Source of the DNA: Streptomyces sp. NBC_01471
GTDB lineage: Bacteria > Actinomycetota > Actinomycetes > Streptomycetales > Streptomycetaceae
Direction of reading: 5' to 3'
Assembly (NCBI RefSeq): GCF_041438865.1
Contig: NZ_CP109450.1
Span: 5,520,501 to 5,584,500 of the forward strand
DNA: 64,000 nucleotides
Part shown: positions 43,502 through 62,317 of the stretch, piece by piece
Layout: each line of letters starts with the position of its first letter
Position numbering within the stretch: the stretch's first letter is position 1
Notes under the pieces: generated by a model
Database searches by the model: none
Told to the model about the DNA's origin: nothing
The model's input: only the letters and a program-made list of their open reading frames with translations
Translations under genes and position numbers: made by a program

Positions 43502-43575
43502 GGGGCGGTAGCTCAGCCGGTTAGAGCAGCGGACTCATAATCCGTCGGCCGTGGGTTCGAGTCCCACCCGCCCCA
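43502..43575 (+). tRNA. tRNA with CAT anticodon (Met elongator or Ile2); likely attB
   Basis: 74-nt cloverleaf: acceptor GGGGCGG/CCGCCCC, discriminator A, anticodon loop CTCATAA, T-arm GTGGGTTCGAGTCCCAC. A CAT loop of this type serves either elongator Met or lysidine-modified Ile2; I cannot separate them by eye. An integrase gene starts 103 bp downstream, so the 3' half is the probable attachment site. Confidence 0.92.
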
Positions 43576-43678
43576 CACAGAAGAAACGTCGTGACCTGCG
43601 GATACGCTTCGTCAAGCGTACCGCGGTCAAGGCGTTCGCCACACAAACGCCACACCGAAGCCCCGTACGATTTCTTCC

Positions 43679-47208: not shown

Positions 47209-49479
47209 TTACCCGTTGTCGGCGCGGGCTGCAAGGTAGCTGGTCCAGTCTCGCTTGACGAGTTTCGCCCAGCGGACAGCGGTTGTGATGTGGAGTCCGA
47301 GCAAGTCGGCGATCACCGAAGCGGGGAGGTCGGCAGCCATGGAACACAGGGCACTGTTGCGGGCGGGGCGGACGCGGATACCGAGGGCGTTGAGCTGATG
47401 GGTGAGGCGGCCGTGGTCCATGGAGGCGCCGGGACGTGCGCCGGGGAACAGCAACCCACTACCTGGGGCAAGGTCTCGGATGATGGGGCGGCGACTGAAC
47501 GGCTCTGCAGTAGCGAGCCGTTGGACGATCTCAGCGAGCGGAGGCGGCAACAGCACGGGGTGCCGGTCGAGAGTGAGATACGTGTACTCGCCTCGCATGG
47601 TGATGTGGGAGCGGGTGAGCGTGACGATGCGCTGTGGCCGCTGGCCGTAGAGCAGCACGAGAGCGCCAGCGACACGCTGGTGGAGCGGGATGCCCTCTTC
47701 GGTGAAGCAGCGTCGCAGCAGTCGCCACCGCTCGTGGTCATCGAGGACGTCACCGGGTTCGTCCCGGCTGCCAAGCCAGGGGACATAGAGGTCGGGAGCG
47801 AGACGGCGGCTGTGGGCCCAGCGCAGGAAGTCGCGGAGGCGGTGGTGGGTGTCGGTGCCGGCGTCCAGCCAGCCGTCGATGTGTGCCTGGGTGACCGTGG
47901 CCAGCGTCAACTGCTGTTCATCGAGCCAGGTCAGGAAGCGGACGGAGATGAGGATGCGCGAGCGGGCGTACTTGCGGACGCTCGGGGTCGAGGCTCGTCG
48001 CATGCTGCGTCCGCGGGCCCGGCTCAGTACGGACCAGGACGCGTAGGGGCGGATGAGTATGGTGATGTGCGGTGGCTGAGTGGCGAGGAGGGTATCGAGC
48101 CAGCCCGGGATGCCGTCGAGGTGTTCGTCGCGGGCAGGCAGCACGCCGGCCGTCACCAGGACCGTGCGCAGGTATTGGACGGGCTTGTGGTGGGAGGGAA
48201 ACGAGTCGAGGAGCTCGTGGGTGATCTCTTCGTGGTCGCTGGCGAGGCGGCCAAGGAGGTCGCCCCAGCCGGAGCGGTAGAGCCAGAGCAGGATCTGGTA
48301 GGGATCTGATTCGGCGTCGAGCAGGCCGATCAAGGGGGCCAACTGGGGCCGGACGTTCCCGTCCGGGCCGGACAACAGTTGATGTACGCGGTCGTGGGCG
48401 ACGCAGCGTGGGCAAAGGCCGTCGGAGAAGAGGGCATCGAAGCGACCGCATCGGCCGCAGTTCCACTCCCGGTCATCGCCCGCGCAGGGTCCGCAGATCA
48501 GTTGCCCGGCGGTGCCGATGCCGATGAGGGGGCGGGCGGCGTCGCACTGGCCGCAGGGCTCGGCATTTCGACGAATCTTCGTGTGGCAGGGGGCGCAGAC
48601 GTCCCCGAGCGGGAGCCGCGAGTGGATGCGCTGGGACTTTCCGCAGCGAACGCAGGGGCGCCGCGGGCGTCTGCGGGCGCGGCAGCTGCTGCAGCGTGGT
48701 TCGCCCGTCTTCAGCCCGCGTGGACAGGGCTTCTGCTGACCGCAGTCGACGCAGGTCAGCACAGGCGGGTTCCAGCAGCGCTCGCAGACCAGTTTCCCGG
48801 ACTCCCGGTCTCGGCGGCGGTTTGCTGTTACCCGGCCGCAGTCCGCGCACTCCGCAGCCTTCGACCGCTGGTAACAGCTTCCGCAGAGGGGACCTTGGTC
48901 GGTGTAGGCCCTTACCGGCTGGTCGCGGTCGCAGGCGGAACAGATCTGTGGCCGTTTGGGAAGGCAGGTCTGGCAGAGCGGCTGTCCGTCACGGCGGGCG
49001 ACGACCGGTGCCGACTTGCCGCAGACGCAGCATTCTCGCCAGAAGGACGTGTCCCGGCGCTTGCACTTGGGGCAGACGGCTCCGCCGTCCGTCTGACGCA
49101 GGGCGACCTCGCGTAGATCGCCGCAGCGGACACACGTCTCGACGTGCTGACGGCTGTAGCAGCTGACGCAGGCCCTGCCGTCATCCACACGGTGCCGCAG
49201 CGTCTTGGCCCGCTGGCAGCGGATGCATCGGGCCCGCTCGACCAGGGGATGTTCGGCGGCGAGGACATCCAGAAGCCGGAGCCGGGCGGCTGGCCCTCCG
49301 GAGTGGCCCGAGAACAGCGCATCCGGGGAGTTTGCGAGGTGCCCCAGCAGTTCACCGGCGGCAGAGCGGCGGAGCCGCAAGCTCGCGACATGAGCGGACA
49401 GAGCATCGCTGTCCGCCCCGGGCAGGGCTCGCCGTAGCAACTCAACGATTGCGTCTGTCACCTCCGGCGGAACTGTCAC
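47209..49479 (-). CDS. Zinc-ribbon array protein with recombinase-like C-terminus (module B)
   Basis: 756 aa. After about 80 helical residues comes a run of about 18 CxxC pairs (residues 85-365: CIRC, CVSC, CVRC, CPKC, CCVC, CQTC, CSAC, CGSC and so on), i.e. about nine tandem zinc ribbons. The C-terminal 300 residues resemble a tyrosine-recombinase core: SAM-like LISVRFLTWLDEQQLTLATV, then GALVLLYGQRPQRIVTLTRS, but the HxxR box and nucleophile Tyr are absent. GTG 49479 overlaps the upstream HTH gene by 4 bp. Paralogue of 50841-53252. Probably an architectural or targeting partner of the active recombinases (inference). Confidence 0.7.
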   Translation of the reverse strand: MTVPPEVTDAIVELLRRALPGADSDALSAHVASLRLRRSAAGELLGHLANSPDALFSGHSGGPAARLRLLDVLAAEHPLVERARCIRCQRAKTLRHRVDDGRACVSCYSRQHVETCVRCGDLREVALRQTDGGAVCPKCKRRDTSFWRECCVCGKSAPVVARRDGQPLCQTCLPKRPQICSACDRDQPVRAYTDQGPLCGSCYQRSKAAECADCGRVTANRRRDRESGKLVCERCWNPPVLTCVDCGQQKPCPRGLKTGEPRCSSCRARRRPRRPCVRCGKSQRIHSRLPLGDVCAPCHTKIRRNAEPCGQCDAARPLIGIGTAGQLICGPCAGDDREWNCGRCGRFDALFSDGLCPRCVAHDRVHQLLSGPDGNVRPQLAPLIGLLDAESDPYQILLWLYRSGWGDLLGRLASDHEEITHELLDSFPSHHKPVQYLRTVLVTAGVLPARDEHLDGIPGWLDTLLATQPPHITILIRPYASWSVLSRARGRSMRRASTPSVRKYARSRILISVRFLTWLDEQQLTLATVTQAHIDGWLDAGTDTHHRLRDFLRWAHSRRLAPDLYVPWLGSRDEPGDVLDDHERWRLLRRCFTEEGIPLHQRVAGALVLLYGQRPQRIVTLTRSHITMRGEYTYLTLDRHPVLLPPPLAEIVQRLATAEPFSRRPIIRDLAPGSGLLFPGARPGASMDHGRLTHQLNALGIRVRPARNSALCSMAADLPASVIADLLGLHITTAVRWAKLVKRDWTSYLAARADNG

Positions 49480-49814
49480 AGCCCCTCCGGGCGCCGGATG
49501 GACGTGCGGCGTACTTGCGGAACGGTCGGGCTGCTATCTCCCGTGCCGGTCTTGCGGACCTGCTGGTTGACCACGGTGATCTCGATGAGGTCCTGGACCT
49601 GGCAGTCGAGGATGTCGCAGAGCGCCGCCAGGGTGTCCATCGACATGCGCTGCGGTGGCTGAGTCACCAGGCGGAAGACCTGTTCCCGCGACAGGTGCAC
49701 GCCGCGCTCGGCGAGCAGGGGCACAAGGTCCGTGGTGGCGAACATCCCGTGGTCGGCCATGATCTTGCGCAGGTGCCACTCGTAGCCCATCTTGCGGATC
49801 ACGACACGCTCCAT
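49476..49814 (-). CDS. Small HTH-like partner protein (module B)
   Basis: 112 aa. YEWHLRKIMADHGMFATTDL, then LSREQVFRLVTQPPQRMSMD and LAALCDILDCQVQDLIEI is an XRE/Cro-type HTH, close to the HTH_26 family (short regulators with a CDILDC-type segment). The basic tail is Arg/Thr-rich. It overlaps the zinc-ribbon gene by GTGA. Paralogue of 53249-53599, so the pair HTH plus zinc-ribbon protein is a conserved module. Confidence 0.8.
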   Translation of the reverse strand: MERVVIRKMGYEWHLRKIMADHGMFATTDLVPLLAERGVHLSREQVFRLVTQPPQRMSMDTLAALCDILDCQVQDLIEITVVNQQVRKTGTGDSSPTVPQVRRTSIRRPEGL

Positions 49815-49882
49815 CGGTCAGCCTGGCGGTTCAGGGAGCGCTGGAGTAGCCGGTTGCGGTACTCGTCGCTCACCCCTAATGG
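49799..49882 (-). pseudogene. C-terminal remnant of a module-B tyrosine recombinase
   Basis: The minus strand reads GVSDEYRNRLLQRSLNRQ and stops at 49799-49801, overlapping the start of the HTH gene. It lines up with the last residues of the complete recombinase at 53617 (HVSDDFMNTSLHKALAPA), in the same place before the HTH gene. The rest of the recombinase is gone. Confidence 0.6.
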
Positions 49883-50025
49883 TGGAGTCGGGTATTGGAA
49901 CTGCCTGAATACCTGTCTGATCTATGCCATGTGTGCCTTGTGGCGGCTAGGTCTCCGCGTGTGACTGTGGCAGCGACCGGGAAAATCGGGTGCCGTGCGA
50001 AGGGTGGCCCGCCAGGATGAGGATC

Positions 50026-50823
50026 ATGACTGGTGAGACGCCCTTGGGGAGACGGCAGCACGTGGGAGAAGCGGGGCGCCCGCTTGCCTTGGTCACGGGG
50101 GCGGGCCGTTCGGCGGGGATCGCGGCGGCCGTGGTGCTGAATCTGGCCCGGGCCGGGTGGGATGTGGCCTTCACGTACTGGACTCCGTATGACGCGCGGA
50201 TGCAGTGGGGCCTGGAGCCGGGTGCGCCCGAAGAGCTGCAGAAGAAGGTGGCGTCGCTCGGGGCGAGAACGCTTGCGGTCGAGGCGGACCTGAGCGACCC
50301 GGCCGTGCCGGCTCAGCTCTTCGACAGAGTCGAGCGTGAACTGGGAAACGTCACCGCGCTGGTGCTCTGCCATTGCGAGTCGGTCGACTCCGGCTTGTTG
50401 GACACCACGGTGGAGAGCTTCGACCTGCATTTCGCAGTCAATGCGCGGGCAACCTGGCTGTTGATCCGGGAGTACGGGCTGCGGTTCCGCGGACAGCACG
50501 GCAGCGGGCGGATCGTCAGCCTGACCAGCGACCACACGGCCGGCAACCTGCCTTATGGGGCAAGCAAGGGAGCGATGGACCGGATCACGCTGGCGGCCGC
50601 CCGTGAGCTCGCCCACCTGGGAGTGACCTGTAATGCGATCAATCCCGGACCGACCGACACGGGCTGGATGACCGAAGATCAGAAGGCGGACATGATCCGC
50701 TTCACGCCCCTGGGACGCCTCGGTGTGCCGCAGGACTGCGCGAATCTTGTCTCCTTCCTCTGCTCTGCAGAGGGCGGATGGATCAACGCCCAGCTTCTCC
50801 AGAGCAACGGCGGCATGGGTTAG
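50026..50823 (+). CDS. Short-chain dehydrogenase/reductase (cargo)
   Basis: 265 aa. ALVTGAGRSAGIAAAVVLNL is the cofactor loop, LVLCHCESVDSGLLDT replaces the usual NNAG strand, and NLPYGASKGAMDRITLAAAR contains the YxxxK pair; ending LLQSNGGMG is the SDR C-terminus. ATG 50026 is taken with AGGA 9 nt upstream. It lies on the opposite strand between the two recombinase modules. Substrate unknown; similar SDRs occur near resistance genes, but nothing here supports that specifically. Confidence 0.82.
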   Translation: MTGETPLGRRQHVGEAGRPLALVTGAGRSAGIAAAVVLNLARAGWDVAFTYWTPYDARMQWGLEPGAPEELQKKVASLGARTLAVEADLSDPAVPAQLFDRVERELGNVTALVLCHCESVDSGLLDTTVESFDLHFAVNARATWLLIREYGLRFRGQHGSGRIVSLTSDHTAGNLPYGASKGAMDRITLAAARELAHLGVTCNAINPGPTDTGWMTEDQKADMIRFTPLGRLGVPQDCANLVSFLCSAEGGWINAQLLQSNGGMG

Positions 50824-50840
50824 CAGCGCATGGCATTGGC

Positions 50841-53252
50841 TCACGGGCGGCTGGCGACGTCGGCTGCGTAGGCGGCCCAGTCTCCGGCGGCGGCTCGCTG
50901 CCATTTGACGGCGACGGTGATGTCGATGCCGAGGGTGCGGGCGAGGACTGCTGCGGGCAGTTCCGTGGCGAGCTGGAAAAGAGCAGTCGAGCGGGCTTCC
51001 GCGAGGCGGATGCCGAGTTTGCGGAGGCGTTCGCCCATGGCCCAGGCGCTGATCGGGCGGCCGGGCTGGCCGCCGGGGAAGAGCCAGGGTGAGTCCGTCC
51101 GGGCGAGGACGGCATGGCTGCGGCGGACCGCGACTTGGTGGAGGGCGAGTTCAGCGACGGGTGTCGGTAGTTCGACCGGGACGGCGCCGAGGTGGATACG
51201 GACGGCTGTGTCCGTCTCCTCGACGTGGTCGACGGTGAGCCGGGAGATCGTGGCGGGCCACTGGGCATAGAGGAGCAACAGCAGGCCGGCGAGGCGGTCT
51301 TCGGGCTTGAGGGCGTCGTCGTGCAGCAGGCGTCGCGCGGTGTCCCAGCGGGCCTCGTCGTCCATCGGCTGGGTGGGGCCGTTCCATCTGACGGCCGGGA
51401 AGCTGAGGTCGCGGGTGATCTTCTGGGCCAGGGCCCAGCGAACGAAGTGGCCTGCCTCTGTGCGAAGGAGGACGCCGTCGCTGGTCATCCAGCGATCAAG
51501 ATCGGCCTGTCGGCAGGTGGTCAGGGTCAGATTCTGTTCCTCGAGCCAGTCCAGGAGATAGACGGCCGCCCGCAGGTGCTGCCGCGCGGTCGCGAGCTGG
51601 TAGTGGGTGATCTCCTTGCCGCGGCTGCGTCGGCGAAGCCGACGTAGAAGGTGCCAAGTTGCGTACCGGTGCAGAATTTTGCGTCCCTCGACCGTCGTAT
51701 GGGAGGTGACGAGGTCCTTTACGTGCCGTTCGAGACGGATCATCTGCTCGTCTCGTTTAGGCAGGACTCCGGCGGCGACGAGAACGCTGCGGATGTGCTC
51801 CACGACCTTGCCTTCCGGGAGCTCATCCAGGGCCTGGTGGGTGAGAGGGCGGCGGCCGGAGCCAAGATCGGACAGGACGGTGGATACGATGCCTTTGGAG
51901 AGCCAGCTCATCGCGGTGCGGGCCCGTTCGGTGCTGGCCAGGGCGTCGTAGAGGGGCTGCAGCTTCGAGGGTATGGAGCCGGTATCGTCGGCGAGGAGAT
52001 CGTGGAGCCGCTGCTTGAGAGTGCAGCGAGGACACGGACCCGGCGCGTGCAGCCGCTCGGCTTGTCCGCAAGTGGGACATGGGCGCCAGAGCTCGGCGTC
52101 CGGTGTCGTGCACGGACCGCAGATGGGCGCGTCGGCGGTGCCGGAGTGGATGCCGCGGAGTCCTCCGCAGATGGTGCAGTGAGCTTGTCGTTGGAAACAG
52201 CCGCGGCAGCGGGGCAGGCCGGTGAGCTTCGAGAGTGTGCCGGGCGCGGTGCGGCCGCAGATCGCGCAGACCAGGACGGGCAGGGGGCAGCAGTTGGGGC
52301 AGAGGGGACCGTCGGCGGTGCGGTTCTGTACTCGGCGTCGTTCGCCGCAGCTGATGCAGACCTCGGTATTCGCGGGGTCGGTGATCAGGCAGTTCGGACA
52401 CAGCGGTCGCCCCTGGTCGTCGCGAGTGGCCGGCTCACGCCGGGCCCCGCAGCGTACGCATTCTTCGACGCGGGACTTGGCGATGCAGTTGCGGCAGACC
52501 CGCTGTCCGTCCAGCGGCTTGTCGATGCGGACCACCCGGCAGCAGCGAGGACAGGCAGGCCGGACGATCCCAGCGACACCGGCCTCGTGCAGCAGCTCGA
52601 TGAACTTCAAGATGGCGCGATGCGGCGCCAGGTAGCCCTCTCCGGTCAGCAGCCGGGGATTCTCCTCCAAGGCCCAGACCACTCGCTGGCGATAGTGGGG
52701 ACGGTCGGGCGCCGTCCGGCGGAGAGCCTCGGCGACCGCATCACGGTCGGCGCCCGGGGCGATCGCGGTGATCAGGTCCTGGACGACCGTGACAGGATCG
52801 CGGTGGTCGTGGTCGGGACACACCTTGAAGCGCGGCAGGCCCTTACGGTCGCGGAAGCCGACGCGACGGACGTTGCCGCAGGCGGTGCACTCGGCGGTTT
52901 CCTGCCCGCAGACTGAGCAGTACCAGTCCTGCCCCTTGCGTTGAAGAGTCCGCAGAATCTTGCCGCACTCGGCGCAGAGAGGTGGTGCGATCACCGAGGC
53001 GCCGGCCTTGCGGAGCTCGATGAGCAGATCGCCGATGGCCCGGGGCGCCGGGGACCGGCCGTCGGTGAGGACAGCGGGCCGTATGGCCAGGGCCTTGGCC
53101 AAGCTTCGTGACTTCGCTCGGCCGCCCGCGACCGCGGTGACCACGGCCCGGATCATCTCGATGCCGAGTTCCCTCTCGATGTCGGCGACGAGGTCGGTGA
53201 TCAAGCCGACCGGGTCTGTGACGGCGCGGTCGAGCTGGTCAGCCGTGGTCAT
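50841..53252 (-). CDS. Zinc-ribbon array protein with recombinase-like C-terminus (module A)
   Basis: 803 aa. Helical N-terminus, then about 15 CxxC pairs between residues 95 and 430 (CAEC, CSVC, CTAC, CPRC, CRNC, CVRC, CPNC, CISC, CAIC, CRGC, CTIC, CGPC, CPTC, CPRC), then a recombinase-like region (AAVYLLDWLEEQNLTLTTCR, LLLLYAQWPATISRLTVDHV, LFPGGQPGRPISAWAMGERL) that lacks HxxR and a nucleophile Tyr. Starts with ATG overlapping the TGA of the HTH gene. Together with the two upstream recombinases and the HTH gene it forms one operon. Confidence 0.72.
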   Translation of the reverse strand: MTTADQLDRAVTDPVGLITDLVADIERELGIEMIRAVVTAVAGGRAKSRSLAKALAIRPAVLTDGRSPAPRAIGDLLIELRKAGASVIAPPLCAECGKILRTLQRKGQDWYCSVCGQETAECTACGNVRRVGFRDRKGLPRFKVCPDHDHRDPVTVVQDLITAIAPGADRDAVAEALRRTAPDRPHYRQRVVWALEENPRLLTGEGYLAPHRAILKFIELLHEAGVAGIVRPACPRCCRVVRIDKPLDGQRVCRNCIAKSRVEECVRCGARREPATRDDQGRPLCPNCLITDPANTEVCISCGERRRVQNRTADGPLCPNCCPLPVLVCAICGRTAPGTLSKLTGLPRCRGCFQRQAHCTICGGLRGIHSGTADAPICGPCTTPDAELWRPCPTCGQAERLHAPGPCPRCTLKQRLHDLLADDTGSIPSKLQPLYDALASTERARTAMSWLSKGIVSTVLSDLGSGRRPLTHQALDELPEGKVVEHIRSVLVAAGVLPKRDEQMIRLERHVKDLVTSHTTVEGRKILHRYATWHLLRRLRRRSRGKEITHYQLATARQHLRAAVYLLDWLEEQNLTLTTCRQADLDRWMTSDGVLLRTEAGHFVRWALAQKITRDLSFPAVRWNGPTQPMDDEARWDTARRLLHDDALKPEDRLAGLLLLLYAQWPATISRLTVDHVEETDTAVRIHLGAVPVELPTPVAELALHQVAVRRSHAVLARTDSPWLFPGGQPGRPISAWAMGERLRKLGIRLAEARSTALFQLATELPAAVLARTLGIDITVAVKWQRAAAGDWAAYAADVASRP

Positions 53253-53599
53253 GACCGGTCAACACTCCTGATCCGAGCCCGCTTTGGCCGCAGCCCGCCA
53301 AGCCCCTCCACGGAAGGTGCCGAGCCACCGGCAGCGGCCTTCTTCGGCTTCTTCACGGCGCCGGCCGCCGCGATGGGCTCGATGAGGTCGTCCATGGTGC
53401 AGTCGAGGATGTCGAGCAGGGCCATGAGGATCTTCAGGCTCAGTCGCTCCGGTCGCTCGACGACAAGCCGGTAGACCTGGCTCGATGACAGGCTGATGCC
53501 GCGTTCCTTGAGCGGTGGGAGGAGGTCGGTGGTGGAGAACATCCCGCGGTCGGCCATGACTTTGCGCAGGTGCCAGTGGTAGTCGAGCTTGGCGGCCAT
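53249..53599 (-). CDS. Small HTH-like partner protein (module A)
   Basis: 116 aa. YHWHLRKVMADRGMFSTTDL, LSSSQVYRLVVERPERLSLK and LLDILDCTMDDLIEPI form the same XRE-type HTH as in module B, followed by a Lys/Arg-rich tail. ATG 53599, 17 bp after the recombinase stop; overlaps the zinc-ribbon gene by ATGA. By position it is analogous to the small TnpC of Tn554-type elements (inference, no homology claimed). Confidence 0.8.
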   Translation of the reverse strand: MAAKLDYHWHLRKVMADRGMFSTTDLLPPLKERGISLSSSQVYRLVVERPERLSLKILMALLDILDCTMDDLIEPIAAAGAVKKPKKAAAGGSAPSVEGLGGLRPKRARIRSVDRS

Positions 53600-53616
53600 C
53601 GCCGGATCCTTCCTCT

Positions 53617-54720
53617 TCAGGCTCCGGCGAACGCCGGGGCCAGTGCCTTGTGCAGGGAAGTGTTCATGAAGTCGTCGCTGACGTGCGTGTAGATGGCCAG
53701 GGAGCTGTCGCACTCGTGGCCGACCTGCTGCTGGATGAACCGGCGGTCGACTCCGTCCTCGGTCAGATGCGTGACGTAAGAATGTCGGATTGAGTGGGGA
53801 GTCAGGTCTTTTGGGAGCTTTAGAGCGTCTCGGTATGCCTCGAACCGGTCGTTGATGGAGCCGGGCTGGAGACGGCCCCCACGTTCCGTGATCCACAGAG
53901 CCGGGTGATCGGGGAACCCGAAACGAGGCCGAACGTTTTCGACGTAGTCGGCGACCGCCTCGACGGCCCAGTCCATCACCGACAGCACGTTCCGCCGCCG
54001 CGGCGGCTGGCCCTTCTTCGCCTTGCCGTAGCGGACGTTGAGCGTGCCGTACCGGCCGAACTGCCGGGCCTGCGGATTGCGTCCGAAGTCGACGACATCG
54101 AGCTTGGACGTCTCGGTCCGGCGAAGCCCCCACCCGTAGATGACCTTGAACAACGTGGCGTCGCGGTAGGCGGCGAGGGCCCCCTTGCGCTTGGCCTTCA
54201 CCGCGCGTGCGACCTGGTCGTCGGCGTAGTCGAGGAAGCGCTGCAGCTCTTCCCTTGTGAACGGCCTCGCCTCTGGATTGCCTTCGTAATCCTGCAGGTG
54301 AGGGAGGGTATTCCACTCATGGCAAATCGCCACCGGGAAGGTGCCGAAGGCTTCTTCGCACGCTGGGACCCAGCCGTATCGGGCATCGATGAGGAGCTCG
54401 GTGAACAGCCCAACGGTGCCCTGGTAGCTGCGGATCGTGGAGGGTGCCAGGCGCCTCTCGCTCGTCAGCGAGGCCGACCATTCGTCCAGATGGGAAGGCG
54501 TCCATCGCCAGGGGTACTCGTTGGTGAACTCCAGGAACCGGCGGATCAGCCGTTCCCTCGGGGCGATCGTCTCGTCCTTCAGCCCTCGCGACTTCTGCTG
54601 AGCACGCCAACCGCGCAGCATCGCGTCGAACATCGCGTCCTCGGGACGCAGCTGAACGACCCCGGAGACGAGCTCCATGTGGGCCGAGCCGGCCAGGGCC
54701 ACCTTGCGCTGATGCACCAC
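53617..54720 (-). CDS. Tyrosine recombinase (second of the pair)
   Basis: 367 aa. Core-binding domain about 30-130 (FLEFTNEYPWRWTPSHLDEW), catalytic domain with Arg200 (YGWGLRRTE), His309-x-x-Arg312 (HSIRHSY), His335 (VGHECDSS) and Tyr344 (AIYTHVS). All catalytic residues are present. Starts ATG/GTG 54720, 65 bp downstream of the first recombinase, whose sequence it resembles closely, and 17 bp upstream of the HTH gene. Confidence 0.9.
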   Translation of the reverse strand: MVHQRKVALAGSAHMELVSGVVQLRPEDAMFDAMLRGWRAQQKSRGLKDETIAPRERLIRRFLEFTNEYPWRWTPSHLDEWSASLTSERRLAPSTIRSYQGTVGLFTELLIDARYGWVPACEEAFGTFPVAICHEWNTLPHLQDYEGNPEARPFTREELQRFLDYADDQVARAVKAKRKGALAAYRDATLFKVIYGWGLRRTETSKLDVVDFGRNPQARQFGRYGTLNVRYGKAKKGQPPRRRNVLSVMDWAVEAVADYVENVRPRFGFPDHPALWITERGGRLQPGSINDRFEAYRDALKLPKDLTPHSIRHSYVTHLTEDGVDRRFIQQQVGHECDSSLAIYTHVSDDFMNTSLHKALAPAFAGA

Positions 54721-54785
54721 TCCAGACCATCCCTTCTGGAGAGCAGATCATGCATCAGAAGGGATCAACTCGGCAACATCCCTGT

Positions 54786-55949
54786 TCAGGAGGCCAGTTC
54801 GTAGAGGCTATGGACTCCTTCCGTTTCCCCCCACGACCAGGCGACCTGCGGTTTCTCGCCCGTCTGATGCAATTCCGGAGGGTTGGTGTAGAGCGCGGTG
54901 GTGGACGCGTATTCGTGGCCGACCTGGTCTTGGACGAACCGCTCCGGGTAGTCGAACTCGATCAGGTGCGTGACGTAGGAGTGGCGCAGGCAGTGCAGGT
55001 CGAGCTCCACAGGCAGGCCGGCCGCGTCGCGGGCCTCCTCGAACGCCTCGTTCAACGAGCGGCGCGAGAGTCGGCTCTGACGCTCGGTCACCCACAACGC
55101 CGGGAGTCGGCCAGGGCCGAAGGCAGGCCGGATCTCGTCCAGCCACTGCTCCAGCACCGGAACGATCCAGTCCATCTCCGGGACCGTGAGCACCGTTCGC
55201 CGCTTGGGCGGGCTGCCCTTGGACGACTTGCCCCAGCGGACGTAGAGCGCGCCGCATCGGCCGTACTGGTGGGCCTTGGGATTGTGCCGGAAGTCAGGCA
55301 GGTCCAAGCCCCACGCTTCCCTGCGGCGCAGACCGTAGGCGTAGACGGTCTTGAGGACCATGGCGTCACGCATTGCGGCAAGCGCCCCTTTGCGCCGCCG
55401 GGCCCTGATCTCCTCCACCCGGCCGTCCGCAGCGTCGAACAGCGCCTGAACCTCGTCGTAGGTCAGCGGGCGGCGGCGGGGATCGCCTTCGTACTCGGTG
55501 ACATGCGCGACGGTGTTCCACTCGTGCAGGATCTGCACCGGCGCCTGTCCGAACTTCTCCTCACACTCCCGCGGCCACGCATAGCGGGCATCGGTGATGT
55601 ACTCCATGAACAGCCGCAACGTGTTCTGGTAGCCGCGGGCCGTGGAGACCACGATCGGTCGTGCCCCCGACCGCAGGTGGTCGATGAACGCCTCCACCTC
55701 GGCTGGTCGCCACTGCCACGGATACTCGTTGGTGAACGCTGCGAAGCGCCGCACCAGATCGATGCGGGATTGAATCGTTTCCGCCTTCAGGAACCGGGTC
55801 CGCTGCTGCATCGACCAACCGTCCATCATCGCGGCGAAGACCGCGGGCGCTGGGTCGAGGTGTACGACCCCCGAGGCCAGCACGAGCGAGGCCGCACCCG
55901 GCAGTTCAGCTGCTCTCGTCACGATGCATTCAACGCAACATCGATGCAT
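54786..55949 (-). CDS. Tyrosine recombinase (first of the pair)
   Basis: 387 aa. FAAFTNEYPWQWRPAEVEAF in the core-binding domain; Arg208 (YAYGLRRRE), His319-x-x-Arg322 (HCLRHSYVTHL), His345 (VGHEYAST) and Tyr354 (ALYTNPP) in the catalytic domain. ATG 55949 lies inside the second of two direct CGATGCATT repeats; GTG at codon 10 is an alternative start. First gene of the recombinase-recombinase-HTH-zinc-ribbon operon. Confidence 0.9.
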   Translation of the reverse strand: MHRCCVECIVTRAAELPGAASLVLASGVVHLDPAPAVFAAMMDGWSMQQRTRFLKAETIQSRIDLVRRFAAFTNEYPWQWRPAEVEAFIDHLRSGARPIVVSTARGYQNTLRLFMEYITDARYAWPRECEEKFGQAPVQILHEWNTVAHVTEYEGDPRRRPLTYDEVQALFDAADGRVEEIRARRRKGALAAMRDAMVLKTVYAYGLRRREAWGLDLPDFRHNPKAHQYGRCGALYVRWGKSSKGSPPKRRTVLTVPEMDWIVPVLEQWLDEIRPAFGPGRLPALWVTERQSRLSRRSLNEAFEEARDAAGLPVELDLHCLRHSYVTHLIEFDYPERFVQDQVGHEYASTTALYTNPPELHQTGEKPQVAWSWGETEGVHSLYELAS

Positions 55950-56785: not shown

Positions 56786-57228
56786 CCGTGCCCCCGGTTC
56801 TGTTCGAAATCACTGCTCATCGCACGCACCGTAGGCACAGGTCCGCGGACATCTCGAACCACCAGCTCATTGGGTGCCGGCGGGGGCGAAAAGGCTGCCT
56901 CCGGCGGGTCCTACTCGGAGGGAGTGGGGGCTGGTTGGTTGGGTGCGGGTTCGTTGTGGTGCGGGTGGTGGGGGCGGGGTTCCCTCCTCGGCCGGACACC
57001 CCAGGGGGCGTACCAGGAACCCGGGCGCGGTGTCCAGGCCGAGCCGCTGCGCGGTCGCTACGCGAGCCGGGACACCGCGCCCGGAACCCTGGTACGGCAG
57101 AGCTGTCCGACCGAGGAGGGAACCCCGCCCAGAGGCCTGTTGTGGCCGGGCCCGGCCGAGCGGGTGCGAGCCGGTGGTACGGGAAAATAGCAGGTCAGGG
57201 CCTATATTCGGGTTGACCCAACCCCTGT
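56786..57228. other. Noncoding divergent region with large palindrome
   Basis: About 440 bp between minus-strand and plus-strand genes of the element. Contains a 159-bp imperfect palindrome (56972-57130) and, at its right end, the first shared promoter. Similar phrases CGAAATCACTGCTCAT (about 56809) and CGAACCACCAGCTCAT (about 56856) near the minus-strand start may be operators. No convincing gene. Confidence 0.5.
56972..57130. repeat. 159-bp imperfect palindrome
   Basis: Left arm begins GGGCGGGGTTCCCTCCTCGG, right arm ends with its complement. Inside, GTACCAGG and CGGGCGCGGTGTCC pair with CCTGGTAC and GGACACCGCGCCCG. Only short bulges interrupt the arms of about 70 bp. Could be an origin, a structured RNA or a protein-binding locus. 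Confidence 0.85.
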
Positions 57229-57310
57229 AACATGGTTTAATTAGTGATGTCGGAAGGGGAGGGCAACACCCCAGCCGACACCGGTAGGCCGACCGGCCGC
57301 CGACAACCTC
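57213..57310 (+). promoter_or_regulatory. Shared promoter and structured leader, copy 1
   Basis: -35 TTGACC at 57213-57218, 17-bp spacer, -10 TTTAAT at 57236-57241 inside the conserved AACATGGTTTAATTA. The leader then forms GTCGG-aa-GGGG ... CCCC-ag-CCGAC (about 57249-57281) with loop AGGGCAACA, a second GGCC/GGCC hairpin, and CTCTCGCCAGGAG leading to the start codon. Confidence 0.75.
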
Positions 57311-57329
57311 TCTCGCCAGGAGAATGAAC

Positions 57330-58070
57330 GTGAGCACCACGAAGGCCCCCGCGAAGCTCGAAACCATCCGCGCCCTTCTCGCCAAGGCGGAGGACCCCCG
57401 TACGCCGGAGTCGGAGGCGGAGCTTGCCCGGAAGCGGGCGTTCCAGATGATGGCGAAGTACGGCGTCGAACAGGCCATGCTCAACGACGCCAACCCTGCC
57501 AGCGACGCCCCGGCGGACCGCAAGATCGTTCTGGACAACCCCTGGGCGATGGAGCGAGTCCGCCTCGTCAACCGCATCGCGCTTGCTCTCGGCTGCCAGC
57601 TCATCCACCTTGGCCGGGACGGTAGCGGCCCGGCCCGCCGGGTTCACGTCTTCGGGTACGTGAGCGACCTTCAGCGCGTCGAACTGCTCTACACCTCTCT
57701 ACTGCTTCAGATGAACAGCGGGCTGGCCGCTCAGTCGGTCCCGCCGGGCCAGGGCGCGCGTGCCTGGCGTCGGTCCTGGCTCCTCGGCTTCATCAACCGG
57801 GTTGGCGACCGCATCGAGGAGGCCGAGCGCGGCGCACGCGAAGAGGCCAGGGGGGGGACCAGCGCCACCGGGCGCAGCGCGGCCCTCGTGCTCGCGGACC
57901 GCAAGGCTGTCGTCTCCCGCAACTACCAGCAGGCATACCCGCGTTCACGGAAGGGCGGCACTACGACCATGACCGGCAACGGGTACGGGTCCGGATGGAT
58001 CGCGGGAAGCCGGGCCGACATCGGCGGTAAGTCGATCGGCCGCACCTCGGCTGGGTCCATAGCCGCGTAG
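57330..58070 (+). CDS. DUF2786-domain protein
   Basis: 246 aa. KLETIRALLAKAEDPRTPES, then ARKRAFQMMAKYGVEQAMLN is the DUF2786 signature (about 8-48); a DUF7168-like part follows with RVHVFGYVSDLQRVELLYTS and WRRSWLLGFINRVGDRIEEA. GTG 57330 is favoured because AGGAG at 57318-57322 is 7 nt upstream; ATG 57324 would be 1 nt from it. Such proteins occur in phages and mobile elements, role unknown. First gene under shared promoter copy 1. Confidence 0.85.
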   Translation: MSTTKAPAKLETIRALLAKAEDPRTPESEAELARKRAFQMMAKYGVEQAMLNDANPASDAPADRKIVLDNPWAMERVRLVNRIALALGCQLIHLGRDGSGPARRVHVFGYVSDLQRVELLYTSLLLQMNSGLAAQSVPPGQGARAWRRSWLLGFINRVGDRIEEAERGAREEARGGTSATGRSAALVLADRKAVVSRNYQQAYPRSRKGGTTTMTGNGYGSGWIAGSRADIGGKSIGRTSAGSIAA

Positions 58071-58140
58071 CCCCGTCAGGGCCGGGGGCGGCCGTCCGCC
58101 CCCGGCCGTCGAGCCCGCGACCAACCCAGGAGGCATGACC

Positions 58141-58596
58141 GTGCCGACACGAAAGCTCCCGGCCACCCCCGCCCGCATCCTCACCGCCGCCGCCGACCAC
58201 ATCGAACGAGTCGGGCTCTATCACGGTGACCACCTCTGGCAGCCCGGCCGGATGGGCGACACTGCCCCGTGCACCGTGCTGCATGCATGGGAACGAGGGG
58301 TGCGCTCCGTCCGGCCCCGCTGGTCCGTACGCGGTGAACCGTGGAACATCTTCCAACGCGCCCTGTTCGACTCCCTTGTGGTGCTCAGCAACCAGGTCAA
58401 CGGCCGTCCCGTGTCCAGGGTTCGGTGGCGAAAGCTGCGGCTCACGGAGGACGCCTACCGGCGCACCCTCCTGTGGTGCTGGGGCGACGAGCCCGAGCGA
58501 AACACCGCCGAGGCCGCCGCCATGATCCGCACCGCCGCGGCCCTGCACCCGAGTGACGGCGATCACAGCATCCTCGGTTCCCCGCTCTCCCGATAA
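58141..58596 (+). CDS. Hypothetical protein, 151 aa
   Basis: Not recognised. Begins MPTRKLPATPARILTAAADH; helical N-terminal part, then RALFDSLVVLSNQVNGRPVS and RLTEDAYRRTLLWCWGDEPE. GTG 58141 is favoured because AGGAGG at 58128-58133 is 7 nt upstream (ATG 58135 would be 1 nt away), the same arrangement as in the preceding gene. Proteins of this shape (a DUF6197-like look) are frequent in actinobacterial elements. Its stop codon TAA merges into the next shared promoter. Confidence 0.7.
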   Translation: MPTRKLPATPARILTAAADHIERVGLYHGDHLWQPGRMGDTAPCTVLHAWERGVRSVRPRWSVRGEPWNIFQRALFDSLVVLSNQVNGRPVSRVRWRKLRLTEDAYRRTLLWCWGDEPERNTAEAAAMIRTAAALHPSDGDHSILGSPLSR

Positions 58597-58690
58597 CATG
58601 GTTTAATTAATGATGCCGGAAGGGGGAGGGCAACCCCCCGACCGACACCGTCACCGGGCCGAACGGCCCGACGAACTCTCACCAGAAAGA
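58578..58690 (+). promoter_or_regulatory. Shared promoter and structured leader, copy 2
   Basis: -10 TTTAAT at 58602-58607 within AACATGGTTTAATTA; -35 weak (TTCCCC, 18-bp spacer). Hairpin CGG-aa-GGGGG-agggcaa-CCCCC-cga-CCG at about 58617-58646, then GGGCCG-AA-CGGCCC, then CTCTCACCAG before the ParB-like gene. Confidence 0.75.
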
Positions 58691-58699
58691 GAAGGACCG

Positions 58700-60472
58700 A
58701 TGACGAAAACCAAGACCCAGGCCAGCGTCCAGACCGCTCCTGCCCCGTGGCCGACCCTCACGGTCGCCGAGCTGGCCGCGCACCCCGGCAACGTCCGCGA
58801 TATCGAGGCCCCGGCCGATCTGCTGGCCGACGTGAAGGACATCGGCGTCATGGAGCCGCTGTACGTCGTGCGCACCAACGGCGACGTGCCGCAGATCATC
58901 GACGGGTTCCAGCGACTGGCCGCCGCCGTCGCCGCAGGGCTGGAGACCGTTCCGGTCACCCCGCGCCCCGTCATTCGGATCGACGCGCTCACCCCGCACC
59001 CGAAGAACGCCCGCGAAGACCTCGACCTCAACCCGCCGTTCGTGGAATCCCTCCGCGCCGAGGGGTGCCGCATCCCCGTCAAGATCCAGCGCCTTGACGG
59101 CGGAGTCCTCCAGATCAATGACGGAAACCGCCGCTACCACGCCGCGACGGACGCGGGCCTTACCCACCTGCCGTACGAGTGGGAGGACGACGACCGCGAC
59201 GCGGCCGGACAGTTCCTCGACATGATCACGACCGCTCAGCACCGCAAGAGCCTGAGCGCTTCCGAGATGAACCAGGCCATGTTCAGCGCCGCCGAGGCGG
59301 GCGCGCAGGTCGGCCGCATCGCCAAGGCCGCAGGCGTGCGGCAGAAGGACGTCAAGACGCTGGTCAAGGTCCGGTCCGACGAGAAGCTGTCGGCCGCCGT
59401 CAGCGGCGCGAGCAGCTATGAGTGGACGTTCGAGCACCTGGCCGCGCTCTCGGAGTTCGCGGACGACGCCGAAGCGCTCGCTGCGATCACCGAGGCCGCC
59501 GCCGACGATGACGCCGACGAGGGAGACGTTGACTGGGCCATCGCCGTCGAGCGGACCAAGCGCGACAAGCGGACCAAGGCCGAGGCCCACCGCGCGGATC
59601 TGGAGGCGGCCGGGCAGAAGATCCGGGACGCCGAGGAGCTGTCCGAGCGCGCCATGCCCGTGTGGCGGCTGCGTGGCATCAGCACCGAGGAGCACGCCGA
59701 CTGCGAGGGGCTGGTGTGGGTGTTCGACGAGCGGCGGGCAGACCGGTACGAGCCCTACTGCTCCGCCCCGGGCCTGTACGGGCACACGGTGCCCGAGGGC
59801 AGCAGCAGCGGCAGCGGCGGCACGAAGACCGCCGCCGAGGTAGAGGCCGAGCGCGCGGCCCGCGCCGCCGTCAAGAAGGGGAACATCGACTGGGACGCGG
59901 CCGAGGCCCTGCGCCGGAAGTGGATCACCGACCTGATCAAGCGGCGCAACCTCCCGAAGGCCACGACCAGCACCCTGATCGGTCACGTGAACAACGCTCT
60001 TCTGAACGCCAGTTGGGGACTCGATGATCTGACCAAGGAGCCGACGACCGAGATCCTTGCCGCCTTCCTGGGGCTGAGCACCGAGCAGGCCAAGGACCGG
60101 GGTAACTTCGCCGGGCACGTCGCCAAGGACCCCCGCAGGGCCCCGCAACTCCAGTTCGCCGCCATCGCCGCTGTACGGGAGAAGTGCGCGAACCGGTCCG
60201 CGTGGAGGACGGACAGCCAGCGCGCCCCGTGGACCCGGAAGCCCACCGGCCGGTGGTTCCAGGTGCTTGCGTCTCTCGGGTACTTGCTCACGCCCATTGA
60301 GCAGTCGGTCGTGGACGACGAGCCGTACGACCCGTCGAAGAAGAAGCCCCGCGCGATCACGTCCGGCAGCGAGCCGGAGGCCGAGCAGGAGCCCGGCACC
60401 GACGAGGAGGAGGGCGAGCCGGAGGCCGAGGAGGCCGACGACCCGGCCAGCGACGACGAAGCCACCGTCTAG
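58700..60472 (+). CDS. ParB/Srx-like protein with two ParB N-terminal repeats
   Basis: 590 aa. First ParB-like segment LTVAELAAHPGNVRDIEAPA to IIDGFQRLAAAVAAG (about 15-80); second ALTPHPKNAREDL to LQINDGNRRYHAATDAGL (about 90-160); then a KorB-like helical region with SASEMNQAMFSAAEAGAQVG, and an acidic Glu/Asp tail. ATG 58700 has AAGGA 5 nt upstream. Likely DNA-binding CTP/ATP-switch family protein for partition or regulation of the element; no ParA is visible in the window. Confidence 0.82.
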   Translation: MTKTKTQASVQTAPAPWPTLTVAELAAHPGNVRDIEAPADLLADVKDIGVMEPLYVVRTNGDVPQIIDGFQRLAAAVAAGLETVPVTPRPVIRIDALTPHPKNAREDLDLNPPFVESLRAEGCRIPVKIQRLDGGVLQINDGNRRYHAATDAGLTHLPYEWEDDDRDAAGQFLDMITTAQHRKSLSASEMNQAMFSAAEAGAQVGRIAKAAGVRQKDVKTLVKVRSDEKLSAAVSGASSYEWTFEHLAALSEFADDAEALAAITEAAADDDADEGDVDWAIAVERTKRDKRTKAEAHRADLEAAGQKIRDAEELSERAMPVWRLRGISTEEHADCEGLVWVFDERRADRYEPYCSAPGLYGHTVPEGSSSGSGGTKTAAEVEAERAARAAVKKGNIDWDAAEALRRKWITDLIKRRNLPKATTSTLIGHVNNALLNASWGLDDLTKEPTTEILAAFLGLSTEQAKDRGNFAGHVAKDPRRAPQLQFAAIAAVREKCANRSAWRTDSQRAPWTRKPTGRWFQVLASLGYLLTPIEQSVVDDEPYDPSKKKPRAITSGSEPEAEQEPGTDEEEGEPEAEEADDPASDDEATV

Positions 60473-60539
60473 CCGCCTTAGTCGCCCGACGCCGGGGGCG
60501 GGAATCCTCCCGCCCCCGGCCACCCCCAGGAGCCCCACA

Positions 60540-60968
60540 GTGACCCGTACAGCTCTGTTCGAGACCCACGCCGACGACCACGGTTGCGGATGCGTCCCCG
60601 CCCCCGCCGAGCCCGACCCCGGCACCACCGCCGACATCATGCAGGCCCGCGCCATCGCAGGCGGACTGGCGGAGTTCGGCATCGGGCCCCGCCGCTGGTC
60701 CGCCGCTTACGACCACCAGGCCGCCGCCGTTGTCCTGCGCGTGGACACCCCGCGCGGGCTGTACGCGCTCGCCATCCCGGCCCCGGCCAGCCGTTCCCCG
60801 TCCGCCACCGTGGCGAGCGCATCGGAGCGCTGGACTGCCGCCGCACGTACGGCACCGCCGACAGCTACACCGCCGCTCTGTTCGCCGCGTTCCTCCGCGA
60901 CCGCGCCGCACTCGACATCCCCGGCTGCCGGGGGGCTTGCCCCATGCCTCAAAACATGGTTTAATTAA
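60540..60968 (+). pseudogene. Small hypothetical gene with probable frameshift
   Basis: GTG 60540 has AGGAG 7 nt upstream. The frame reads MTRTALFETHADDHGCGC ... RGLYALAIPAPAS, then turns low-complexity. Around 60800-60830 a different frame begins protein-like sequence, ERIGALDCRRTYGTADSYTA then ALFAAFLRDRAALDIPGC, ending at 60962. A +1/-1 shift (or sequencing error, or recoding) would join both halves to about 140 aa. Function unknown. Confidence 0.6.
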
Positions 60969-61092
60969 TGATGTCGGAGGGGGAGGGCACCCCTCCTCCG
61001 ACACGACGGGCCGCCAGCCGGCCCGAGACCGGCCGTACGCGGAGGGCAACCCGCCCGGCCGGGCCCGCGATTCCTCTCTCACCAGCAGGAGC
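60937..61092 (+). promoter_or_regulatory. Shared promoter and structured leader, copy 3
   Basis: -35 TTGCCC at 60937-60942, 17-bp spacer, -10 TTTAAT at 60960-60965 within AACATGGTTTAATTA. Hairpin TGTCGGA-GGGG ... CCCC-tcc-TCCGACA at about 60972-61003, then GGGCCG/CGGCCC, then an extra GCGGAGGGCAACCCGC hairpin repeating the loop AGGGCAA, then CTCTCACCAG and AGGAG. Confidence 0.75.
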
Positions 61093-61099
61093 ACCCACG

Positions 61100-62317
61100 A
61101 TGACCAGCGCAGCCATGCGGTTTTCCATCCCCGCGACCGCTCAGTCCCGCGTCCGTCAGCTTGTCGAGGCGACCAACGCCCGCGCCGCCGTCCACCACCT
61201 CAGCGCGTACGCGATGGACATCTCCAAGCCGTTCCTTGCCGACTACCACGACATCGACGGCCGCCTGATCGGCCAGCGCCCCACCGTCACCGTGACGATC
61301 TCCGGTGACATCCCCCGTCACCACGGCTGGACCGTCATCGCCCGCCTGGACCACGACGAGGAGGGCGAGACGATAACCAGCCTGTTCCCCGGTCTGCCCG
61401 AGCAGGACGCCGAGGCCGCGCGCCAGTACCGCGCCATCGAGTCCTTCTGCCACGGGTGTGCCGTCGCCCGGCACCGCACCGCCACCTACCTTGCCCGCCA
61501 CGAGACCGGCGAGATGCGGCAGTTGGGCACGACGTGCGTCGAGCCGTACACCGGTCTGCCGATCAAGGGACTTGAGGCCCTGTGGCGGTTCGGCACGCTG
61601 AAGGACTCCGATTGGGACGGCGAAGAGGGCGGCATCCCGGCCGATCTCCGCGTGCCGGTGATCGAGGTGCTGCGGGTGACCGCCGCCATCGTGAACACCG
61701 AAGGCAGGTTCTACAGCCGGTCCGAGCAGTGGAAGAACACCCCGCCGACCGCCGACGGCGTCGAAGCGTACTTCTTCGACCGCAAGGCCCCGATGGAGTG
61801 GCGGGCCGGCATCGACGGCGACCCCGACGCGCCGACTACCGCCGTCGCCGTCCGGGCATGGGCCGTCCAGGGATACGGCAGCCTCTCCGACTACCGCCAC
61901 AAGGTGGGCCAGTTGGCGAAGGGTGAGACCGTCGATCCGCGCCACCTGCCGGCACTGGTGTCCGCCATCGCGGGTTGGTACCGCGACCAGGAGAAGGAGG
62001 CCAGCGAGCGGACCGCCCAGAACTCCCGGCCGCAGGGCACGGTGGGCGAGCGGATCACCACCGCCGCCACCGTCACCACCGTGATCGAGCTGGAGGGCCG
62101 GACGTACGGCTACCACACCCAGCGCCGCCGACTGGTGAAGTTCCAGGACCCGAGCGGCAATGTGTTCATCTGGTTCAGCTCCGCCGCCGACATCCCCGAC
62201 CAGGGCGACCAGGTCGAGCTGACCGGCACGGTCAAGGACCACAGCATCTACGGCGAGACCGCACAGACCGTGCTCACCCGGTGCCGCGTCGCCGCGCGAG
62301 AACCGGTCGCCGCGTAG
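61100..62317 (+). CDS. Hypothetical protein with C-terminal OB-fold-like domain
   Basis: 405 aa. N-terminal helices (RVRQLVEATNARAAVHHLSA), a Cys/His cluster (FCHGCAVARHRTATYLARHE, QLGTTCVEP) that may bind zinc, a middle helical region, and a C-terminal beta-rich part VVIELEGRTYGY-like through VFIWFSSAADIPDQGDQVEL and TGTVKDHSIYGETAQTVLTR, which has the rhythm of an OB fold. ATG 61100 with AGGAG 8 nt upstream. Possibly nucleic-acid binding; not recognised further. Sole gene directly after shared promoter copy 3. Confidence 0.7.
   Translation: MTSAAMRFSIPATAQSRVRQLVEATNARAAVHHLSAYAMDISKPFLADYHDIDGRLIGQRPTVTVTISGDIPRHHGWTVIARLDHDEEGETITSLFPGLPEQDAEAARQYRAIESFCHGCAVARHRTATYLARHETGEMRQLGTTCVEPYTGLPIKGLEALWRFGTLKDSDWDGEEGGIPADLRVPVIEVLRVTAAIVNTEGRFYSRSEQWKNTPPTADGVEAYFFDRKAPMEWRAGIDGDPDAPTTAVAVRAWAVQGYGSLSDYRHKVGQLAKGETVDPRHLPALVSAIAGWYRDQEKEASERTAQNSRPQGTVGERITTAATVTTVIELEGRTYGYHTQRRRLVKFQDPSGNVFIWFSSAADIPDQGDQVELTGTVKDHSIYGETAQTVLTRCRVAAREPVAA

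Follow-up and report, generated by a model that had tools for sequence, protein, structure and literature searches.

What does it mean when several neighbouring genes of a Streptomyces genome begin with nearly the same leader? In this study, we examined a stretch of 64,000 nucleotides of Streptomyces sp. NBC_01471 (the window; G000:C1:5520501-5584500 of the 8.49 Mb genome), for which the original prediction, made from the sequence letters, had described a recurrent block of promoter and hairpins at 57213, 58578 and 60937, before genes for a DUF2786 protein, a ParB-like protein and an OB-fold type protein. The block is indeed present at these three places, which are its -35 positions, and it is built in the order promoter, hairpin A, a GGCC-type hairpin B, the tag CTCTCNCCAG (57310, 58676 and 61076), Shine-Dalgarno (SD) sequence and start codon, with about 85-135 nt from the predicted RNA start to the start codon; the tag that had been placed before the ribosome binding site is thus found in all three leaders. 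On balance, we think that the block probably forms the mRNA 5' end of a leading-region regulon in a relaxase/type IV secretion system (T4SS)-type conjugative element of Streptomycetaceae, and that its loop is likely to be read in trans.

Copies of the leader in the genome and in related elements

The pattern AACATGGTTTAATTA has three perfect matches in the window (57229, 58595 and 60953; 0.01 expected in shuffled sequences) and no further place there, even when three mismatches are allowed. A covariance model of the hairpin (R1), whose seed of 16 rows included window copy 2 and neither copy 1 nor copy 3, gave 46, 62 and 36 bits for copies 1, 2 and 3, the best score in the window outside the three leaders being 13.6 bits. 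Across the whole genome, ACATGGTTTAATTA, which is one base shorter, has five matches at no more than one mismatch, all on one strand and within 9 kb, and its reversed control has none; 6 kb beyond these there is a sixth copy, which is diverged and precedes a DUF6211 gene (L006:16772). The original count of three therefore holds for the window and falls short for the genome, which has six copies, all within one stretch of 15 kb. The proposal of a regulon private to one mobile element is supported.

Matches were found in four of 150 genomes (own included), the other three carrying six copies each in a single cluster, and the ParB-like protein of the window led to 16 further loci, all of them from Streptomyces. 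The search for homologues that had been proposed with the original prediction thus yielded further copies in other Streptomyces loci and in plasmids. The own locus, the 16 further loci and plasmid pMDJK44.2, 18 loci in all, contain 80 distinct promoter-linked copies selected by their -10 region alone; totals of 80, 81, 82 and 83 occur across our analyses because deduplication lengths differed. The loop core is present at no more than one mismatch in 77 of the 80 and missing from three. In 73 of 82 copies the trinucleotide TTG precedes TTTAAT by exactly 17 nt; no other offset within 6 nt has it in more than two. The promoter consensus is TTGNCC-N17-TGGTTTAAT, with a TG one base before the -10 region that we take to be an extended -10 motif. 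A generic sigma-70 scan of 56900-61200 returned zero promoters, because it requires an A at position 2 of the -10 region. In model coordinates hairpin A starts 6 nt past the -10 region, and its 5' base would lie at about the expected 5' end of the RNA. Its outer stem, which reads GTCGG/CCGAC in the window family, is followed by a short internal loop and by an inner stem of a G-rich and a C-rich arm, topped by the loop AGGGCAAC.

Beyond these loci, a search with a second model (R2) matched six of 295 genomes, own included; it scored just 26 candidates per genome under strict filters, so that absence there carries little weight. A ParB profile detected 15 of 394 family genomes, in four of 17 genera. 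The leader stands before the ParB-like gene in all 15 upstream regions read by eye, of 16 genes, with UUGGCACC and CGGCAA as further loops, and for the sixteenth gene (L082) it was seen only after the gene. Common to the loops across lineages is the core GGCA. Before more distant ParB neighbours (16 Streptosporangium and 10 Rhodococcus genes) no such hairpin was seen by eye. The Microbacterium plasmid MST3P carries AACAACACGGCAGACCA before its ParB-like and SSB genes (L094:7905 and L094:11601); this sequence has the GGCA core and no obvious stem, and is perhaps a distant, hairpin-less relative.

Position and strand of the hairpins

The same hairpin type is found before many genes of plasmids from S. 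europaeiscabiei, Kitasatospora, Streptomyces NBC_00134 and S. phaeochromogenes, which have more distant ParB-like proteins and in which the hairpins also occur where no such promoter is seen. Position was tested in five plasmid loci (L046-L050), using loop cores whose stem has four or more pairs. The array strand holds 47 of the 48 intergenic cores and the other strand one. An annotated gene follows 46 of the 47 array-strand cores, all of which are sense to that gene, and the remaining one falls past the last gene of its stretch. The median distance from loop core to start codon is 61 nt (interquartile range, IQR, 51-71; single cases up to 978), and that to the upstream stop codon is 82 nt (IQR 35-284). 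Genes make up more than two thirds of the sequence of these loci on average, and the intergenic excess together with the nearly fixed distance to the start codon ties the hairpin to the gaps before translation starts. Outside the arrays there is a single core in 30 kb from the S. europaeiscabiei plasmid and none in the stretches taken from pMDJK44.2 (32 kb) and the NBC_00134 plasmid (31 kb); in the own genome, 14 kb surrounding the relaxase contain just one site, already counted above.

The hairpin as an RNA structure

In 33 hairpins from several lineages, both partners have changed in eight of the nine pairs. Covariation scores 0.439, compared with 0.118 +/- 0.020 in shuffled alignments (0 of 500 as high), and slid pairings reach at most 0.116; 28 of the 33 rows had been drawn from 50 by requiring at least four contiguous pairs and at least seven of nine, which favours pairing. 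This is strong support from the wider set for what had been predicted, a cis-acting leader in which pairing is kept. Neither a lack of further homologues nor a lack of covariation, two of the outcomes named beforehand as refuting it, was thus observed. We also permuted the arms of hairpins, using for the plasmids a set selected by loop and position only and not by pairing. The 35 hairpins of five plasmids have a native mean of -24.97 kcal/mol against -17.88 +/- 0.67 kcal/mol after permutation, the 73 window-family leaders one of -22.25 against -21.20 +/- 0.26 kcal/mol, and in neither set did any of 300 permutations reach the native mean.

With 4227 Rfam families at gathering threshold, the window gave only three tRNAs and L046-L049 gave no match; a permissive search of 57150-61120 gave two sub-threshold matches on the minus strand, both outside the leaders. 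The statement that no named motif matches therefore stands as far as Rfam is concerned. Two other ideas about the loop were set aside. As code for a leader peptide ('MSEGGGQPP') it would not keep its frame, being in frames 2, 0 and 1 in 37, 27 and 5 leaders. A pseudoknot between loop and tag (GAGGG with CUCUC) is possible by eye in the window family and not in the Kitasatospora or NBC_00134 lineages.

Loop and tag in each plasmid

For chosen co-directional array genes we recorded whether the 130 nt upstream contain a loop on a stem of four or more pairs, and whether a tag lies within 45 nt (Table 1). Because the motifs were picked after viewing these plasmids, the table is a description and not a test. 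Each of the compared plasmids has one main loop variant (AGGGCAAC, ACGGCAAC, ATGGCAG or CGGCAA) and one main pre-SD tag. With the exception of CGGCACC, no loop occurs off the diagonal; among the tags, the S. europaeiscabiei plasmid has one CACCAACA and two of the loose CACCA type, of which there are also 12 in the Kitasatospora plasmid and one each in the window element and pMDJK44.2. The loop AGGGCAAC is common to Streptomyces and Kitasatospora plasmids, and loops differ within Streptomyces.

Table 1. Main loop and pre-SD tag among the scored array genes of each element
Element	Loop	Genes with loop	Tag	Genes with tag
Window element	[AC]GGGCAAC	6/11	CTCTCACCAG	8/11
pMDJK44.2	[AC]GGGCAAC	3/10	CTCTCACCAG	6/10
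S. europaeiscabiei plasmid	[AC]GGGCAAC (+ CGGCACC 3)	6/18	CTTCACGA	7/18
Kitasatospora plasmid	[AC]GGGCAAC (+ CGGCACC 2)	10/21	CACCAACA	11/21
NBC_00134 plasmid	ACGGCAAC	7/10	CTTCACA/GC	8/10
S. phaeochromogenes plasmid	A/GTGGCAG	7/12	CTTCAA type	7/12
CdTB01 plasmid	GCGGCAAC	5/17	CACCA type	6/17

The S. europaeiscabiei array has a second part (L047:21433-25778) with another hairpin, GGGGCGGCACCC, and another upstream sequence, TGCTGTAAAGTTGTTC, as if two such regulons were present in one plasmid.

Genes under the leader

The array is probably the region that conjugative plasmids send first into a new host, to judge from its genes. In the S. phaeochromogenes plasmid an ArdC gene (L098:2936; ArdcN 30.3 bits, cut-off 22.6) and a methyltransferase gene (L098:1146; N6_Mtase 21.9, cut-off 20.4) both lie behind an ATGGCAG leader, so that anti-restriction and methylase genes are found under the leader there. 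The OB-fold type protein has homologues in five of the six elements compared. DUF6211 proteins are found in four elements by BLAST, to which Pfam adds the own genome and the S. phaeochromogenes plasmid; other families of the leader arrays are DUF6409, in several elements, DUF2786 and DUF3560. Four elements have a relaxase gene downstream of the array and on its strand: the own genome, with a TrwC domain at G000:C1:5597639, pMDJK44.2 and the S. europaeiscabiei and NBC_00134 plasmids. A TraM-recognition protein is annotated in the latter three. This gene set fits a leading or establishment region as portrayed in two papers (PMC11541004, PMC8708921).

A phage origin was considered and rejected: the ParB-like protein matched none of 50,697 phage records, and viral contigs contained neither of two promoter-hairpin patterns, both taken from the window family, to which this second result is limited.

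Features of the window and its surroundings

The features of the window are collected in Table 2. The loop AGGGCA, which had been described as common to the three leaders, is so with a qualification: hairpin A of copy 3 deviates (AGGGCACC), and the canonical AGGGCAAC is found in the third hairpin of this leader (61029-61062). The palindrome GGGTTG-ACC-CAACCC spans the -35 region of leader 1 (57210-57224) and is a possible separate operator; it is kept, or nearly kept, in DUF2786-type leaders of several relatives, and none was seen in window copies 2 and 3.

Table 2. Coordinates of features (window positions unless a locus is given)
Feature	Positions	Strand	Remarks
Promoter 1: TTGACC 57213-57218, 17-nt spacer with AACATGG, -10 TTTAAT 57236-57241	57213-57243	+	-35 within palindrome
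Hairpin A, leader 1: loop AGGGCAACA between GGGG/CCCC	57247-57281	+	R1 46 bits; fold
Hairpin B, leader 1: GGCC GACC GGCC type	57282-57302	+	fold
Pre-SD tag, leader 1: CTCTCGCCAG, then GAG	57310-57319	+	
DUF2786/DUF7168 protein gene	57324-58070	+	GTG 57330 is the better-spaced start
DUF6197 protein gene, unit 1 gene 2	58135-58596	+	
Promoter 2: degenerate -35 GGTTCCCC; -10 TTTAAT 58602-58607	58578-58609	+	
Hairpin A, leader 2: loop AGGGCAAC	58613-58648	+	R1 62 bits, seed row
Hairpin B, leader 2: CGGGCC GAAC GGCCCG	58655-58670	+	fold
Pre-SD tag, leader 2: CTCTCACCAG	58676-58685	+	
ParB-like protein gene (ParB_N)	58700-60472	+	present in 6/6 elements compared
Hypothetical protein gene, 142 aa	60540-60968	+	homologues in 6/6 elements compared
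Promoter 3: TTGCCC 60937-60942, 17 nt, TTTAAT 60960-60965	60937-60967	+	
Hairpin A, leader 3: loop AGGGCACC, extended stem	60971-61004	+	R1 36 bits
Hairpin B, leader 3	61007-61025	+	fold
Further hairpin, leader 3: GCGG AGGGCAAC CCGC	61029-61062	+	fold; R1 15 bits on part 61039-61054
Pre-SD tag, leader 3: CTCTCACCAG	61076-61085	+	
405-aa protein gene	61100-62317	+	C-terminal OB-fold is a guess; no Pfam family at cut-off
GGGATGGCAGCCC sites, S. phaeochromogenes plasmid	L050:7153, 7615, 8124, 9683, 11733, 14926; L098:1092, 2880, 4403, 5993		

Upstream in the window, a tRNA-Met (43502-43576) is directly followed by a gene of the phage integrase family (43679-44917; Pfam E 1e-18), and this junction (43502-44917) is the probable left end of an integrated element; a 28-nt pattern from the tRNA-Met end, used to look for the right attachment site (attR), has no second copy in the genome at two mismatches. 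The minus strand of 47209-55949 carries two further integrase-family genes (53617-54720 and 54786-55949; Pfam) adjoining genes for two long cysteine-rich proteins without a Pfam match (47209-49479 and 50841-53252), with DNA blocks of 71-74% identity between the members of each pair. In the own genome, the downstream part of the array also contains a minus-strand open reading frame (L006:14263-15138) that is transposase-like as judged by eye.

Mechanism and alternatives

According to the reading that we favour, the extended -10 type promoter would put the RNA start near the 5' base of hairpin A, and the hairpin, acting as RNA, would influence the translation initiation and/or the stability of each cistron. 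The loop would be read in trans, most likely by a factor from the same plasmid, and the establishment genes would be switched jointly, for example on in a fresh recipient that is free of the factor and later off. That the loop stays constant on very different stems argues for its recognition by something, and that it changes with the plasmid and not with the host genus suggests that the reader is brought along by the plasmid. The ParB-like, 142-aa and OB-fold type proteins are candidate factors by their conservation only. In sequence, the first of them is similar to proteins of the ParB, Noc and KorB structures, and a role as a regulator at the DNA level is equally possible for it; the OB-fold type protein has no relative in the PDB by sequence. 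A protein-bound leader, one of the two mechanisms originally suggested, is the one we favour, unproven as it is, while the other, a riboswitch-like leader, is spoken against by the single simple hairpin with a loop that differs by plasmid lineage. More tentatively, and with less confidence than we have in the reading above, the system may be a post-transcriptional establishment regulon with an element-encoded loop reader, in which an NGGCA-type loop and the tag form a plasmid-specific barcode and zygotic induction is achieved without a DNA repressor.

Several observations weigh against a leading-region regulon with a loop reader. No trans factor could be named, and the case is one built from sequence; recombination-driven concerted evolution could homogenise the loops without a cognate factor, and this is the main alternative to a plasmid-borne loop reader. 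The hairpin is not found on every array gene, the strict criterion being satisfied by 6 of 11 genes in the window element and 3 of 10 in pMDJK44.2, and cores on stems of four or more pairs also occur inside genes of L046-L050 (nine on the array strand and four on the other). The arms of the window family differ little, which keeps its arm-swap effect small; natives beat their own mean chimera in only 42 of 73 cases. The compensated outer stem that had originally been claimed is not visible from the three window copies alone, copy 2 having a C.A mismatch (GCCGG/CCGAC), and it is the wider set that shows compensation; the -35 region of copy 2 is also weak and lacks a TTG 17 nt before the -10 region. 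The structure model of the OB-fold type protein (mean pLDDT 55; five C-terminal strands) is too poor for a structure search. With regard to the genes, the ArdC candidate of the window element (L006:9831) has no ArdC match and its relative in pMDJK44.2 a weak, sub-threshold one. Four of the plasmids, those of Kitasatospora, NBC_00134, S. phaeochromogenes and CdTB01, are listed by PLSDB as non-mobilizable, although the NBC_00134 plasmid has an annotated relaxase. The assignment as a leading region is an inference from gene content and orientation, without a located oriT.

Among the other explanations, one that acts in cis only is rather unlikely in our judgement: a 5'-terminal hairpin would guard the mRNA from 5'-dependent decay without any trans factor, which matches the start of hairpin A 6 nt after the -10 region, near the expected RNA start, and intergenic hairpins would protect processed ends or keep the SD sequence open, with the C/A-rich tag, present in the lineages examined, as a ribosome standby site. 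Stems that change in sequence while their pairing stays are equally expected under such a role. However, it gives no account of the near-fixed loop on these changing stems, nor of the differences in loop and tag from plasmid to plasmid. Quite improbable is processive antitermination or attenuation along the long arrays, the activity of put/nut-like elements. Promoter-proximal hairpins and long co-directional arrays would suit it, but the sites are found again and again in front of individual genes, with a position related to the start codon, and a terminator scan of 56900-61200 gave three against 1.8 expected. Hardly better placed is a single-stranded DNA (ssDNA) element of the entering strand, either an Frpo-like promoter or a priming (ssi) hairpin, which we also consider quite unlikely. 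The array genes resemble those of leading regions, where Frpo promoters occur (PMC11541004), and the hairpin can form in ssDNA (mean pairing probability 0.66); yet the -35 and -10 regions lie 5' of the hairpin, with pairing probabilities per strand of 0.24/0.23 for the -10 and 0.50/0.48 for the -35 region (83 promoters), intergenic copies occur without such a promoter, and the near-fixed distance to the start codon is given no reason. By these pairing probabilities, the -35 and -10 regions are not inside the folded strand as they would be in an Frpo or ssi element, and the leader was not assigned to this class. Least probable of all is that the repeats are homogenised remnants of duplicated promoters without RNA function; the promoter block is highly similar within a plasmid, as this would require, but the covariation largely refutes it, together with the arm-swap outcomes, the loop kept on quite different intergenic stems and the leaders found in four genera.

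Comparison with known systems

Repeated regulatory sequences before establishment genes are already known (EGeRS1/2, Frpo), as are start-associated repeats of phages (SAS/ESAS), and we compare the leader with them here by description. EGeRS1 of the pLS20-family Bacillus plasmids is a sequence of 400-600 bp before several establishment operons; it contains inverted repeats, for which a structure in ssDNA or RNA is given in the supplement, its mechanism is stated to be unknown, and no strong sigma-A promoter was found upstream of pLS20 ardC (PMC8708921). Both are repeated sequences with inverted repeats before operons of establishment genes, in our case probable ones, of Gram-positive conjugative plasmids; the genes behind EGeRS1 include an anti-restriction or methylase gene in each plasmid and many of unknown function. 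In contrast to EGeRS1, the leader is only about 85-135 nt long, has an extended -10 promoter and one-loop hairpins and occurs in promoter-less intergenic copies, and by its length it does not belong to EGeRS1. EGeRS2/Reg of p576 also has similar promoters across one establishment regulon; there, a ribbon-helix-helix repressor acts at operators flanking the promoter, whereas here hairpins lie in the transcript (PMC8708921). Frpo and ssi elements share with the leader that they are structured and stand before establishment genes in leading regions (PMC11541004), but in Frpo the folded strand forms the promoter, which in the leader is outside the hairpin.

In cluster K mycobacteriophages, the SAS lies at the start codon, contains AGGAG and is of unknown function, and about half of the SAS have upstream 17-bp inverted repeats whose consensus differs by subcluster (PMC3203893, PMC12699233). 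As in our case, the element is short, belongs to a single mobile genome of actinobacteria and precedes many of its genes, for the most part in the same orientation. However, the hairpin of the S. phaeochromogenes plasmid is about 45-55 nt upstream of the start codon and not at it, and in the ESAS the arms are conserved and the spacer varies, whereas here conservation lies in the loop and variation in the arms. At 10 places (Table 2), two mismatches separate the core GGGATGGCAGCCC of the S. phaeochromogenes plasmid from the SAS consensus GGGATAGGAGCCC. Both sequences fit a GGG/CCC stem that encloses a loop of seven bases. A scan with GGGATAGGAGCCC at no more than two mismatches, covering the window, L006, L030-L050 and five more plasmid stretches, gave 19 matches, the reversed consensus giving 12; GGGATGGCAGCCC, off the start codon, accounts for 10 of the 19, and neither L006, which holds the array of the own genome, nor the window family has such a match. 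The leader was not classed with SAS/ESAS, and the near-match may be due to chance. Our literature search found no description of a promoter-hairpin leader, subscription papers being mostly outside its reach. The unusual part is the pattern of loop and tag in each plasmid, and the findings suggest a shared control of plasmid establishment genes that has not been described.

Implications for plasmid establishment

Establishment genes help conjugative plasmids to withstand the restriction and other defences of a new host; the timing of their expression in Gram-positive plasmids is partly open, as the case of EGeRS1 illustrates (PMC8708921). The leader offers a compact actinobacterial RNA element, consisting of one loop, a stem and a tag, with many natural variants. 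If the barcode proposed above is true, it would keep the circuits of co-resident plasmids apart, and the near-match between the S. phaeochromogenes core and the SAS would hint at a principle common to actinobacterial phages and plasmids. Hairpin and tag together provide a handle with which establishment genes without known function can be found in the plasmids of Streptomycetaceae.

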